A stretch of 11,193 nt of DNA from Candidatus Aerophobetes bacterium Ae_b3b (GTDB taxonomy: Bacteria; Aerophobota; Aerophobia; Aerophobales; AE-B3A), in assembly GCA_005223085.1 (NCBI GenBank), contig NJBP01000062.1, positions 1-11,193 on the forward strand. The letters are read 5' to 3'. This document shows positions 1,980-7,195 of the stretch, piece after piece; positions within the stretch are counted from its first letter, which is position 1, and each line of letters begins with the position of its first letter. The notes beneath the pieces were generated by a model. The model saw only the letters and a list, made by a program, of their open reading frames with translations. It did not search any database and was not told the DNA's origin. The position numbers were made by a program, and so were the translations under genes.

Positions 1980-2090
1980 TTATTTCAAAAGATCTCCAAT
2001 CTCAGCGCCATAGCCTACTCGGAAGGGAATGCTTTCCAGAATTTCACGTCTTCGGGTATTATTCTCCAAAATCCCTCTTTCTATTTTAAC
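1980..2090 (-). pseudogene. gpgS: Remnant of glucosyl-3-phosphoglycerate synthase (C-terminal part)
   Basis: Between the TusA gene and the GT4 gene an open minus-strand frame reads RREILESIPFRVGYGAEIG and stops at 1980. This closely matches the C-terminal region of GpgS, where the mycobacterial-type sequence has RE-L--(L/I)PF--GYG-EIG-L. GpgS transfers glucose from an NDP-glucose to 3-phosphoglycerate. The rest of the roughly 300-residue enzyme is missing upstream, where the frame runs into tusA. After the stop, another frame reads AKFLGKRSSKINELMRS, which loosely resembles the following LG-R-HRN--L-EL part of GpgS with a deletion before it. There is no start codon with a ribosome site, so this is a decayed fragment. 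The identification rests on memory of the family motif, but the match is long and unlikely by chance. Confidence 0.6.
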
Positions 2091-2311
2091 TTCCTGACGT
2101 AGACCCGGTATTCTCCTTCCCCCTCTTCTATTCTCAGGAATTCGTTTCCAGTGCGCCTACACCAGGCAGGCATATCTTCTTTTATCCCTTCATCATCAGA
2201 GATGACCTCCAGTACCTGCCCAATTTTAAGATCCTTGATTTTTTTTGCTGTCTTCACAATAGGCATGGGGCAATATAGTCCCAGGGTATCTAAAATCGCA
2301 TCTGCCTTCAT
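2081..2311 (-). CDS. tusA: TusA/SirA-family sulfur carrier protein
   Basis: A small (76 aa) sulfur-carrier protein of the TusA/SirA/YeeD family. The family signature sits at the N-terminus as LDTLGLYCPMPIVKTAKKI, with the persulfide-carrying Cys14 in the CPxP motif. A second cysteine, Cys51 in PAWCRRTGN, is at a position often occupied in TusA-like proteins. TusA proteins take a sulfane sulfur from a cysteine desulfurase or rhodanese and hand it to DsrE-type partners or to tRNA thiolation and molybdenum-cofactor assembly. The ATG at 2311 has an AAGGA site about six bases upstream and lies 18 bases after the DsrE2-family gene, so the two are surely co-transcribed. No selU-type or YeeE membrane partner is visible. 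The family call is firm, but the physiological acceptor is unknown. Confidence 0.93.
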   Translation of the reverse strand: MKADAILDTLGLYCPMPIVKTAKKIKDLKIGQVLEVISDDEGIKEDMPAWCRRTGNEFLRIEEGEGEYRVYVRKLK

Positions 2312-2823: not shown

Positions 2824-2930
2824 CTATTCTTTTTTAAGCTTTGCTCCACATTGTGGGCAAAAAGGGGGCCTCCCAATACAATTTTCCCACACTGCGTGCA
2901 AAATCACAACTTCTTGCTACAGACGCGGCA
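2824..2930 (-). pseudogene. Broken zinc-ribbon gene
   Basis: The 137-base gap between the NifS homologue and the DsrE2 gene holds a degraded small zinc-ribbon gene. One minus-strand frame gives FCRVCSKKL, a TGA at 2904-2906, then FCTQCGKIVLGGP. The next frame (-1) picks up as PFCPQCGAKLKKE and stops at 2824-2826. Joined across the C5T5 run near 2859-2868, the two halves make a standard pair of zinc knuckles, C-x2-C-G...C-x2-C-G, ending in the KL tail typical of small zinc-ribbon proteins. No start codon with a ribosome site precedes it in frame. It is best read as a pseudogene with at least one indel and one stop; a sequencing indel in the homopolymer could explain the second break but not the TGA. 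The original role may have been in the sulfur cluster, but this is a guess. Confidence 0.5.
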
Positions 2931-2943
2931 AAAAGGAAAAATG

Positions 2944-4104
2944 TTACTTTTTGTATAAGGGGGACATTTCTCTTAACCTTTGCACTACAGAAGGAAGAGT
3001 CTCCAGTAGATAATCTATGTCTTCCTCGCTATTATCCGTGCCCAGACTGAAGAGAAGAGATCCCTGGGCTACTGCTGCCGGGACCCCAATGGCCGTCAAA
3101 ACATGAGAGACCTTCAACGCCCTGGAAGTGCAGGCAGAACCACTGGATGTGGCAATTCCCTGGCTGTCGAGAAGCATGAGCATCGATTCTCCCTCAATGA
3201 ATTCGATGCAAACGTGCACATTATTAGGAAGGCGGAGTTTTGGATGGCCATTAATACGAAGGTGTTCGATTCTTCGAGGAAGCTCATTGATCAATTTTTT
3301 TCGCAGGAAGAACAGGTGTCGCCGGCGCTTTTCCATCTCTTTTTTTGCCAGCTCGGCCGCCTTGCCTAATCCCACGATCCCGGGTACATTCTCCGTACCG
3401 GCTCTCCTCCCGTCTTCCTGTATTCCCCCTTCCAGATAAGGCATAATTCTCGTTCCCTTACGAAGAAAGAGAGCCCCCACTCCCTTAGGACCATAGAATT
3501 GATCAGCCGAAAGGCTCAGGCAATCTACTCCCAGTTCACCCACATCTAAAGGGATAATTCCGGTGGTGGCTATGGCATCGGTGTGGAAGTAGACCTTCCT
3601 TTTTCTAACGACCCTGCTGATCTCCTCTATGGGCTCGATGGTACCTATCTCATTATTGGCATGCATAATGGAAACCAGGATGGTCTCCTCGGTCATGGCC
3701 CTGGCCACTTTAAGAGGATCCACCAATCCATACTGGTCCACGGGAAGGTAAGTAACCTTAAAGCCCCATTTTTCCAAGGTTTTAGCAGAATGAAGAACCG
3801 AGAAATGCTCAATTGAGGAAACGATGAGGTGTTTTCCTCTTTTTTGATGGGCCAGGGCTATTCCTTTGAGGGCAAAATTATTGGCTTCGCTTCCATTGCC
3901 CGTAAAAATGATCTCCTCGGGTTCGGCTCCGATTAACCCGGCTACTCTTTGCCGCGCTTTCTCTATGGCGCTGGCGGATTCCTGTCCAAATTGATGCAAG
4001 CTAGAGGGGTTGCCAAAGATTTCTTTTAGATAGGGAAGCATCTCTTCTCTTACCTGGGGATGAATGGGAGTGCCAGAAGCATGGTCAAGATAGACTTTTC
4101 TCAT
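2944..4104 (-). CDS. NifS/IscS-family class V aminotransferase lacking the PLP lysine
   Basis: Full-length (386 aa) member of the cysteine desulfurase family, which normally uses PLP to remove sulfur from cysteine as an enzyme persulfide. Conserved features are YLDHASGTP at the N-terminus, His100 in [16 protein letters not shown] (147-155), Asp176 in [18 protein letters not shown], and the sulfur-accepting Cys325 in [11 protein letters not shown]. The lysine motif, SGHK-YGPKG in E. coli IscS, reads [10 protein letters not shown] here, so the Schiff-base lysine is Gln202 and the preceding His is Asp201. By my alignment the PLP-contacting Gln is Ala179 and the substrate-carboxylate Arg (IRFSLG) is Leu351. 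Otherwise the fold and length look intact, so this is not a decayed copy. The start at 4104 follows an AGAGGT site. It leads the operon with the DsrE2 and TusA genes. Cysteine desulfurase activity is doubtful, and a sulfur-relay or scaffold role is possible. Confidence 0.88.
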
Positions 4105-4178: not shown

Positions 4179-4206
4179 ATTCTACAGTAAAAGCGAAGAT
4201 CGTCAA
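4179..4206 (-). promoter_or_regulatory. Sigma-70-like promoter of the NifS-like/DsrE2/TusA operon
   Basis: On the minus strand, TTGACG (4201-4206) is followed after exactly 16 bases by TAGAAT (4179-4184). Each hexamer matches five of six consensus positions. Transcription would begin near 4172, giving a leader of about 68 bases to the ATG at 4104. No terminator hairpin is visible between the genes downstream, so the transcript may run as far as the flavin reductase. Confidence 0.6.
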
Positions 4207-4618: not shown

Positions 4619-6340
4619 GTGTCTGTTGATCTTACTCTAAAGATCGGGGGGGAGGCAGGACAGGGCATGCAGACCATTGGCTATGTTTTGTCTAAAACCC
4701 TCGCTCGAGGTGGCTTTCACCTATTTGCCAATCAAGACTATATGTCACGCATAAGGGGAGGACATAACTTTTTTCAGATAAGAGTTAAAGAGGAACCGGT
4801 GTATGCCCTGTCGGAAGAGGTAGATATATTGATTGCCTTAGATAAAGCTACGGTCAAGATCCACCGCCCTGAACTAAAAGAAAAAGGGGTGATAATTTTT
4901 GATGGTGAGCAGATCGATATTTCCCCCAAAAAGCCTCATCTTCTGAGCGTTCCTCTCGAGCGTCTGGCCAGAGAAGAAGGGGGAAATAAGCTATTCAGTA
5001 ATTCAGTAGCGGTGGGGGCCGCCCTAGGAGTTCTTGATTATAGATTCGATATTTTGGCCCAGGTATTGAAGGAGGTATTTGGCAGGCGAGGAGAGGAAAC
5101 TGTCCAGAATAACGTTAAAGCAGCCAGAGCAGGATACGATTTTACCCGGGAAAACTATAAGGATTCTCAGGTTTCCCCGCTTCAATCCGGGAAAGGCAAT
5201 AAAAAAATGCTCATCAGTGGTAATGAAGCCCTGAGCCTGGGAGCCATGGCCGCCGGTTGCAAATTTATGGCTGCCTATCCTATGACCCCTTCCACCGGAA
5301 TCATTACCTACCTGGCGGGGAAGGCCAGAGAATTTGGTTTGGTGGCCGAACAGGCTGAGGACGAGATTGCCGCCATCAATATGGCCATCGGAGCCTCCTT
5401 TGCCGGGGTGAGGGCGATGGTAGCCACCTCGGGCGGAGGATTCTCCCTGATGGTGGAGGCCCTGGGTCTAGTGGGTATGACCGAGACTCCCCTGGTTATC
5501 ATAGAGGCTCAGCGTCCTGGTCCCAGTACCGGACTTCCTACCCGAACCGCCCAGGCTGACCTGGAGTTTGTACTCCATGCTTCTCAAGGCGAGTTCCCCC
5601 GGGCCATTTTCGCGCCGGCTACTGCGGAAGATGCCTTTTGGTCAGTGGTCAAAGCCTTCAATTTGGCGGAGAAATATCAGGTGCCGGTAATCATCATGAG
5701 TGATCAGCACCTGGCCGACTCTTACTCTACCTGCCACAAATTCGATCTTAGGAAAGTGAAGATTGAGAGAGGAATCATTTCTGATACGGAACTGACAAAA
5801 ATCAAAGATTATAAACGTCATCGATTTACTCCATCCGGGATTTCCCCGAGGGCTTTTCCTTCCCAGAAAGGTAGAATTGTCATTACCGATAGTGATGAAC
5901 ACGATGAGGATGGGCATCTTACCGAGGATCTGGAGATGGGAAAGAAGATGGTTCAAAAGCGTCTGAAAAAGATAGAAGCTCTAGCCACCGAGATTGAGCC
6001 TCCTCAAGTTTATCCCCATGAGAATGCTCAAATAATCCTCATTGGATGGGGATCAACTTATGGAGCTTTGAGAGAAGCGGTGGATATTCTAATCGATCAG
6101 GGCGTGGACGTTAGTTTGATGCATTTTCAGGAGATCTGGCCTTTTCCTACTCAGTTGGTAACCTCTATTCTTAGTAAGGCAAAGCAGAGCTTCTGTGTAG
6201 AAAATAATGCTACCGGACAACTGGCTCGTATTATTCGAGCTGAGACCGGCAGGAAGGTGACGGGAAAGATCCTTAAATTCGATGGACGTCCCTTTAGCTC
6301 CCAATACATCATTAAGGAATTAAAGAAAAAGAAGGGATAA
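4619..6340 (+). CDS. korA: 2-oxoacid:ferredoxin oxidoreductase, fused gamma-alpha subunit
   Basis: With KorB it oxidatively decarboxylates a 2-oxoacid (2-oxoglutarate or a related acid) to the acyl-CoA, reducing ferredoxin, in the cytoplasm. The 573-residue chain has the gamma domain first, with GGEAGQGMQT at 10-19 and NQDYMSRIRGGHNFFQIRV at 38-56. The alpha domain follows from about residue 197, with AYPMTPST (219-226), EQAEDEIAAINMAIGASFAG and TSGGGFSLM. The DSDEHDEDGH segment at 424-433 is typical of KorA-type enzymes, and the C-terminal CoA-interacting domain (from about 468) contains GWGSTYGALREA. The GTG start at 4619 follows GGGAG at seven bases' spacing; the ATG overlapping it is out of frame. 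korB follows after three bases. No delta (ferredoxin) or separate gamma gene is present, as in two-subunit KorAB enzymes. The exact 2-oxoacid cannot be read from the sequence. Confidence 0.93.
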   Translation: MSVDLTLKIGGEAGQGMQTIGYVLSKTLARGGFHLFANQDYMSRIRGGHNFFQIRVKEEPVYALSEEVDILIALDKATVKIHRPELKEKGVIIFDGEQIDISPKKPHLLSVPLERLAREEGGNKLFSNSVAVGAALGVLDYRFDILAQVLKEVFGRRGEETVQNNVKAARAGYDFTRENYKDSQVSPLQSGKGNKKMLISGNEALSLGAMAAGCKFMAAYPMTPSTGIITYLAGKAREFGLVAEQAEDEIAAINMAIGASFAGVRAMVATSGGGFSLMVEALGLVGMTETPLVIIEAQRPGPSTGLPTRTAQADLEFVLHASQGEFPRAIFAPATAEDAFWSVVKAFNLAEKYQVPVIIMSDQHLADSYSTCHKFDLRKVKIERGIISDTELTKIKDYKRHRFTPSGISPRAFPSQKGRIVITDSDEHDEDGHLTEDLEMGKKMVQKRLKKIEALATEIEPPQVYPHENAQIILIGWGSTYGALREAVDILIDQGVDVSLMHFQEIWPFPTQLVTSILSKAKQSFCVENNATGQLARIIRAETGRKVTGKILKFDGRPFSSQYIIKELKKKKG

Positions 6341-6343
6341 ACT

Positions 6344-7195
6344 ATGGTCACTATAGATGATTACCAGGGTCAGGTTACTGCCTGGTGTCCAGGCTGTGGT
6401 GATTTCGGGATTCTTCAGGCGCTAAAGAAAGCCCTGGTGAACCTTAAGCTAGAACCTCATCAAGTATTAATCGTCTCAGGAATTGGTCAGGCTTCTAAGC
6501 TGCCTCACTATATGCGATGCAATACCTTCAACGGTCTTCATGGAAGAATCCTTCCGGTGGCCACCGGGGCCAAGGTAGCTAACCAGGAGTTAGTGGTCAT
6601 CGGCGTGGGAGGAGATGGAGACAATTACGGAGAAGGAGGTAACCATTTCCTTCACGCCATTCGTCGGAACATAGATATAACGCTGCTGGTTCACAACAAC
6701 AAGGTCTATGGGTTAACCAAGGGACAAGCCTCTCCTACCAGTGATCCTGCCTTTGTCACCAAGGTGCAACCGGGAGGAGTCGTTTCATCTTCTTTTAACC
6801 CTCTTTCTCTGGCTATTTCCCAGGATGCTGGTTTCGTCAGTAGAGGCTGGTCTGGCGATATAGATCATCTTTCCTGGCTCATAAAGCAGGCCATTCAACA
6901 TAAGGGATTTTCTTTGGTAGACACTTTGCAGCCCTGTGTAACTTTTAATAAAAAGAACACCTACCGCTGGTATAAAGAGAGAGTCTATAAACTAGCTGAA
7001 GAATATGATCCCACTGACAGATTAGCTGCTTTTGAAAGGGCTCAGGAGTGGGGAGATAGAATACCAATTGGTATTTTTTACCGAAAGCAAAAACCAACTT
7101 TCGAGGACCAACTGGCAGGTCTCAAAAAAGGTCCCTTATTCAGGCAAAAACTGGATCCTTCTCAGCTCAAGCCTTTGCTGGAAACTTTATCCTGA
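6344..7195 (+). CDS. korB: 2-oxoacid:ferredoxin oxidoreductase, beta subunit
   Basis: The TPP- and iron-sulfur-binding subunit of the KorAB enzyme, 283 residues, normal length. WCPGCGDFGILQALKKAL (14-31) opens the protein. The TPP/Mg motif is GDGDNYGEGGNHFLHAIRRN (90-109), ending at the HNNKVYGLTKGQASPTS loop (117-133). Cys15, Cys18, Cys59 and Cys198 are the four expected ligands of the [4Fe-4S] cluster next to TPP. The GIGQASKLPHYMRCNTFNGLHGR segment is characteristic of this family. The ribosome site AAGGGA lies within the last codons of korA, so the two are translationally linked. The protein has no ferredoxin-like domain; electrons must pass to free ferredoxin. Confidence 0.94.
   Translation: MVTIDDYQGQVTAWCPGCGDFGILQALKKALVNLKLEPHQVLIVSGIGQASKLPHYMRCNTFNGLHGRILPVATGAKVANQELVVIGVGGDGDNYGEGGNHFLHAIRRNIDITLLVHNNKVYGLTKGQASPTSDPAFVTKVQPGGVVSSSFNPLSLAISQDAGFVSRGWSGDIDHLSWLIKQAIQHKGFSLVDTLQPCVTFNKKNTYRWYKERVYKLAEEYDPTDRLAAFERAQEWGDRIPIGIFYRKQKPTFEDQLAGLKKGPLFRQKLDPSQLKPLLETLS

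Follow-up and report, generated by a model that had tools for sequence, protein, structure and literature searches.

An IscS-like protein without the catalytic residues of cysteine desulfurases, encoded beside tusA and dsrE2 in Candidatus Aerophobetes, belongs to a family that may feed Fe-S cluster assembly from inorganic sulfur

Introduction

Assembly of iron-sulfur (Fe-S) clusters is taught as beginning with a cysteine desulfurase, and genes such as the one described here are annotated NifS or IscS. The closest described protein is the IscS of Archaeoglobus fulgidus (IscS2; PDB 4EB5, 4EB7, 4HVK, 4R5F), which has Asp for the PLP-binding Lys, Ala at the Gln site and Leu at the Arg site, and keeps the Cys. 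In the sections of PMC7585200 that deal with it, with reference to Marinoni 2012, Yamanaka 2013 and Pagnier 2014, this protein reportedly shows no desulfurase activity and contributes a Cys that ligates the IscU-bound cluster. The same sections describe IscS1 of Methanosarcina acetivorans as also without the lysine, paired with IscU1, uncharacterised and found in inclusion bodies if expressed alone, and they mention no link to TusA. That IscS can lack the lysine is already known for A. fulgidus and has been noted for M. acetivorans; the first-pass annotation of the DNA analysed here had named the former, and correctly so (PDB 4EB5; PMC7585200).

Other systems share parts of this picture. E. 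coli IscS, whose fold, Cys loop and both partner types (IscU and TusA; 3LVJ, 3LVL) are common to the protein studied here, is catalytically active with PLP and donates sulfur to TusA, whereas the flow that we propose runs in the opposite direction. MIS (MisS-MisU; Garcia et al. 2022) is presented in the relevant passages of PMC12442378 and PMC11559095 as an IscS/IscU homologue pair without the rest of ISC. These describe MisS as a cysteine desulfurase, whereas the proteins considered below lack the catalytic residues and add TusA/DsrE; the adjacent IscS-IscU pair that resembles MIS is present in relatives and absent from the operon analysed here. In the DsrE-TusA relays of Metallosphaera cuprina, homologues of DsrE and TusA pass sulfur compounds (thiosulfate) between cysteines, and the section of PMC4175335 that describes them mentions no IscS or IscU partner.

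We analysed a stretch of 11,193 nucleotides from a Candidatus Aerophobetes genome (hereafter the window), which encodes an IscS/NifS homologue without the PLP lysine. Judged by residue patterns and gene order, the gene belongs to a large, overlooked IscS-like family that lacks the catalytic residues and lies beside sulfur-carrier genes in many anaerobes. This suggests that such organisms might feed Fe-S cluster assembly from inorganic sulfur, not from cysteine. In a literature search, outside which most subscription papers lay, we met no account of the bacterial clade, of a combined loss of Lys, Arg and Gln that spares the Cys, or of the linkage with TusA/DsrE, and no proposal of a TusA-fed lysine-less IscS, which is no proof of novelty.

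Results and discussion

A full-length IscS homologue with an altered active site

The features of the locus are collected in Table 1. The first-pass annotation had called the IscS gene full length, and the intact minus-strand frame confirmed this, the plus-strand frame at the same coordinates being rich in stops. The residue changes that it had listed were borne out by the alignment columns: Q202, preceded by D201, stands at the site of the Schiff-base lysine, A179 at that of the Gln for the PLP phenolate oxygen and L351 at that of the Arg for the substrate carboxylate, while H100, D176 and C325, the last at the persulfide-cysteine position on the mobile loop, are retained. With Lys, Arg and Gln absent, desulfurase activity would be lost, in agreement with the earlier suggestion that the protein is probably no cysteine desulfurase. 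In E. coli IscS, either of the substitutions K206A and Q183E abolishes desulfurase activity (PMC9978102).

Table 1. Positions of the sulfur-related features in the window.
Feature	Coordinates	Strand	Evidence	Remark
TusA, 76 aa, CPMP motif	2081..2311	minus	PF01206, 95 bits	only TusA found in genome
DsrE2-like protein, 158 aa	2330..2806	minus	PF13686, 180 bits	
Decayed zinc-ribbon remnant: FPFCRVCSKKL, stop, FCTQCGKIVLGG, frameshift, PPFCPQCGAKLKKE, stop	2824..2939	minus		probable scar of lost iscU-zinc ribbon segment
IscS/NifS homologue, 386 aa	2944..4104	minus	ATG at 4104, stop at 2944	full length; PLP Lys, substrate Arg and PLP Gln absent
L351 codon	3052..3054	minus	alignment	Arg354 of E. coli IscS
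C325 codon, persulfide/ligand Cys	3130..3132	minus	invariant in 169/169 homologues	
D201-Q202 codons	3499..3504	minus	alignment	His-Lys in true desulfurases
A179 codon	3568..3570	minus	alignment	Gln183 of E. coli IscS
Promoter-like site TTGACG-16-TAGAAT, sigma-70-like	4179..4206	minus	consensus scan, 10/12	upstream of the IscS gene; alone no proof of function

The protein scored 524.6 bits against the NifS equivalog TIGR03402 of NCBIfam, just below the curated cut-off of 530.75. Its AF2 model had a pLDDT of 92.9 and a pTM of 0.91, with values below 50 solely in the Cys loop (326-329), and showed the IscS fold, with an rmsd of 1.0-1.4 and Z of 55-57 to human NFS1, E. coli IscS and A. fulgidus IscS. 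A sequencing error at codon 202 was rejected, since the change is found across the clade and is joined by the loss of Arg and Gln.

Residue patterns among homologues

We compared 169 distinct homologues, obtained from a scan of species genomes and from relatives, Nitrospirota and Desulfobacterota. Lys, Arg and Gln were all present in 92. The Arg was absent from 77, among which 71 also lacked the Lys and 75 the Gln, 69 having lost all three jointly, and no Arg-bearing homologue was without the Lys. On the contrary, C325, H100 and D176 were invariant across the whole set. Because the three residues are lost together while the latter three never change, we consider, from the alignment, that the substitutions are not decay.

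Two other explanations were also considered. The window as an isolated oddity was rejected, considering that the same substitutions recur in 77 of the 169 homologues, nearly always in concert and far above chance; a pseudogene was rejected at the level of the family.

Within the Arg-less set, position 202 is occupied by Q, S, P, K, T, R, D, A or M and position 351 by L, V, T, M, I or E; these sites are therefore free to vary, unlike the Cys. The relaxation is centred on PLP and substrate contacts (positions 151, 179, 199, 201, 202 and 351), and newly conserved residues are N75, S102, K331 and R/K328, beside the Cys. A Ser-Pro near the C-terminus is invariant; in E. coli IscS it belongs to the end that binds IscU.

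A Nitrospirota subgroup (L127, L128, L129, L131, L135 and L138), basal to the lysine-less clade, keeps the Lys and has Leu for Arg, Met for Gln and GSTC instead of GSAC at the Cys loop. As this subgroup lacks Arg and Gln yet still carries the Lys, its position suggests that the substrate site would have been lost before the lysine.

All 77 Arg-less proteins keep H100 and D176, two residues that contact PLP in active enzymes, and such invariance would be surprising had PLP simply been lost. H174, E152 and E99 are likewise invariant in the 77. H100 and D176 may form a new site with N75 and S102, and their invariance therefore makes a non-covalent cofactor or a different substrate conceivable. 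The protein might, then, still hold PLP without a covalent bond, or hold another cofactor, and act through H100, D176, S102 and C325 on cysteine persulfide, cystine, thiosulfonate or selenocysteine, a reading that can also draw on the fixation of N75 and S102, on the Lys of the Nitrospirota subgroup and on the finding that E. coli K206A holds some PLP (PMC9978102). We nevertheless judge it unlikely, considering that the contacts to the PLP phosphate and ring (72, 151, 179, 199 and 201) relax along with the Lys, that the Arg for the substrate carboxylate has become Leu or Val, and that at least eight residues occur at position 202, unlike what a conserved new catalyst would show.

Phylogeny

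In a careful tree with the active-site columns masked, the clade that holds the window protein comprises 23 lysine-less proteins and PDB 9WEP (support 98/86). A larger quick tree gave a clade of 53 rows (SH-aLRT 99), of which 46 lack the lysine. The members that carry a name belong to Nitrospirota, Thermodesulfobacteriota, Myxococcota, Planctomycetota (Scalindua), Nitrospinota, Chloroflexota, Actinomycetota, Caldifarciminota (WOR-3) and Aminicenantes.

A separate group, beside normal ANME-2 enzymes, was formed by A. fulgidus IscS together with one protein of Methanophagales and one of G002, a genome of the same family as the window. The trees place the two types apart, although their union in a single clade was not rejected (AU p 0.38). 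A. fulgidus IscS has the same fold as the window protein (rmsd 1.0-1.2, 48% identity over 369-378 residues), and its close archaeal relatives sit in operons of the order TusA-(DsrE)-lysine-less IscS-IscU. It differs by its separate branch, by Asn-Asp or Asn-Glu where the window clade has variable residues, and by the Cys loop (SKTLQ against SRALK); moreover, the window operon lacks IscU.

PDB 9WEP is a cysteine desulfurase with Lys and Arg, deposited in several variants, and forms a long branch inside the lysine-less clade. The archaeal protein of locus L207 (1357-2649), outside the 77, carries Glu (NE) where its relatives have Asp in place of the lysine, and the otherwise invariant Asp176 is Asn in it.

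Gene neighbourhoods in relatives

TusA was encoded within 2 kb of 48 of the 77 Arg-less genes versus 1 of the 92 normal ones (p 1.2e-20, a value that ignores shared descent). The genome-scan set gave the same picture within 3 kb, with 13 of 22 lysine-less against 1 of 59 normal genes (Fisher p 1.6e-8, again ignoring shared descent), and the sole normal gene with TusA nearby (L059) has a lysine-less neighbour. Together with the masked-column trees, these counts answered the question raised in the first-pass annotation: homologues without the Lys form a clade that co-occurs with TusA/DsrE. A phylogenetic pairs test of the Lys-TusA link found only 1-2 independent pairs and hence had no power; the link is largely one clade-wide trait with few independent origins. 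In 29 of the 77 Arg-less genes TusA was absent within 2 kb, some of the contigs ending there.

About a dozen gene orders were seen. Writing S for the lysine-less IscS, the most frequent were S-IscU-TusA (20), TusA-S-IscU (12) and S-IscU-DsrE-TusA (6), followed by S-IscU-TusA-DsrE (2), TusA-DsrE-S-IscU (2), DsrE-S-IscU-TusA (1) and others. This shuffling speaks for a linkage between the lysine-less IscS and TusA that is kept by selection. The archaeal group with Asp or Glu for Lys had TusA, often with DsrE, just upstream in 24 of 26 cases and in none of 4 normal sisters (p 5e-4); IscU lay in the neighbouring stretch in all 26, and the 4 normal sisters had IscU only.

IscU is the most constant neighbour of lysine-less IscS in relatives, usually directly after it. 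Normal IscS genes also often adjoin IscU (34 of 59 in the genome-scan set), so that IscU alone is no marker of the family. We asked whether the sulfur might instead pass through TusA to tRNA thiolation or molybdenum cofactor synthesis, the lysine-less IscS having given up persulfide formation and acting as a docking hub. The relevant part of PMC2854127 has E. coli TusA serving tRNA thiolation and binding IscS (3LVJ), in line with such a role, but the neighbour in relatives is mostly IscU and no gene of either pathway is prominent in the annotated part of the recurrent neighbour clusters, which makes this quite improbable.

DsrE alone is a weaker marker than TusA, and its type differs between loci: PF13686-type proteins occur in L008 and L039, short DsrE in L059, L089 and L182. 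TusA and DsrE are also found together in the YTD clusters of sulfur-disproportionating bacteria (PMC12998232), and the module could accordingly be dissimilatory, with lysine-less IscS, TusA and DsrE handling sulfane sulfur for energy metabolism by sulfur disproportionation or reduction. This we hold to be very improbable: the YTD cluster is described as YedE, TusA, DsrE and hypothetical proteins, NifS or a desulfurase being unmentioned (PMC12998232), whereas here IscU points to Fe-S assembly and genes of Fe-S enzymes (NadA, oxoacid:ferredoxin oxidoreductase) lie near some members.

The operon of the window and the other sulfur genes of its genome

In the window, the dsrE2-like gene and then tusA lie downstream of the IscS gene, all on the same strand, and the proposed operon with DsrE2 and TusA was thus recovered by the Pfam matches. 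The DsrE2-like protein reached 180 bits with Pfam DrsE_2 and, with NCBIfam NF047629 (SulfCarrDsrE2), 69 of 210 bits, below the cut-off; TusA combined its Pfam match (95 bits) with the CPxP cysteine, here CPMP. The claim of a good promoter stood in part: a 10/12 site is indeed present, while the class is no commoner in the window than chance (5 sites found against 3.8 expected from shuffles).

Among the arrangements tallied, the window alone had the order S-DsrE-TusA without an intervening IscU. The gap of 137 bases between the IscS and dsrE2 genes encodes a zinc-ribbon remnant with one stop and one frameshift. Against the intact zinc-ribbon gene that this genome carries 3' of iscU on contig C77, its DNA gave a local score of 67, the best of 500 shuffles reaching 40, and in the relatives L039, L061 and L089 a zinc ribbon is fused to IscU or follows it directly. 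Because relatives carry IscU and the zinc ribbon at the very place of the remnant, iscU has most likely been deleted from the window operon.

The intact iscU and zinc-ribbon pair on C77 (locus L113, 4437-5028, minus strand) contains the only IscU found in the window's genome, with no NifS beside it. This IscU is 77% identical to that of L039 and groups with the IscU partners of lysine-less IscS (96*; set of 30 partners of Arg-less proteins and 2 of normal ones). A normal NifS is encoded on contig C70 beside an Nfu-like gene. We found no SufB/D and no second TusA in the genome, which is 88.6% complete.

The loss of iscU, with its remnant left behind, and the presence of a normal NifS would also be expected if the lysine-less gene were a functionless paralogue of an ordinary NifS undergoing decay. 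Such decay is scarcely credible for a 386-aa frame that is intact, is modelled with high confidence and keeps the catalytic Cys and the signature residues of the family; dsrE2 and tusA are intact too, and the substitutions are shared throughout the clade.

Proposed role

As no neighbour is more constant in relatives than IscU, which the window operon has lost, Fe-S assembly is the likelier task of the protein. We think it fairly probable, from the residues and gene order, that this is a desulfurase-dead IscS serving IscU as a cluster scaffold or persulfide relay, with sulfur coming from TusA/DsrE and not from cysteine. Having lost cysteine desulfurase chemistry, the IscS-fold protein would keep the structural half of the function, binding IscU and presenting a cysteine. 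C325, on its mobile loop, would act as persulfide carrier or, as has been reported for the A. fulgidus pair of IscS and IscU, ligate the cluster where the protein meets IscU. The persulfide would be handed over by the TusA-DsrE(2) carriers, as the gene linkage suggests, with sulfide or sulfane sulfur as its ultimate source. The distant C77 IscU, of the matching type, is presumably the partner in the window's genome. In E. coli without iscS, clusters are built anaerobically on IscU from H2S (PMC13015791).

The first-pass annotation had proposed a relay or scaffold passing persulfide to DsrE2 and TusA. The linkage with TusA/DsrE supports this in part, but the IscU partner had been missed and the flow may be the reverse, from TusA/DsrE as donors to the lysine-less IscS and IscU as acceptors. 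The lysine-less IscS is, moreover, not confined to the window.

Some observations go against the role that we favour: besides the invariance of H100 and D176, these are the 29 Arg-less genes without TusA within 2 kb, the few independent origins of the TusA link, the Lys of the Nitrospirota subgroup, the Lys and Arg of PDB 9WEP inside the clade and the missing iscU of the window operon. More tentatively, and falling a little short of what we would call probable, many bacterial phyla and Halobacteriota could possess a cysteine-independent ISC machinery, in which a PLP-free dead IscS and IscU receive inorganic sulfur as persulfide via TusA/DsrE.

If the family indeed cannot use cysteine, many anaerobes would have a hidden assembly route fed by sulfide or sulfane sulfur, and their annotations would be wrong. 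Delivery by TusA/DsrE would then replace the step thought to start nearly all Fe-S assembly, and sulfur supply to IscU in sulfide-rich anaerobes would become testable with a defined four-gene module.

Other genes at lysine-less IscS loci

Alpha/beta genes of a 2-oxoacid:ferredoxin oxidoreductase adjoin the lysine-less IscS in the window (4619-7195) and, as judged from sequence clustering, in an Aminicenantes locus (L037, 3111-5707). The G002 locus (L118, 1191-3182) encodes the A. fulgidus-type protein, with Asn-Asp and with Glu for Arg, followed by an IscU frame with an extra C-terminal region; further on lie desulfoferrodoxin-like, ferritin-like and 2-oxoacid:ferredoxin oxidoreductase genes, the last also present in the window. 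At L060 and L074 (labelled Desulfobacterota/Myxococcota), the order lysine-less IscS-(Rrf2-like regulator)-IscU precedes a gene for a NadA-like protein; NadA is the Fe-S enzyme quinolinate synthase. On a WOR-3 contig (L039, 3431-5998), five tandem paralogous genes of 151-173 aa lie directly upstream of the lysine-less IscS.
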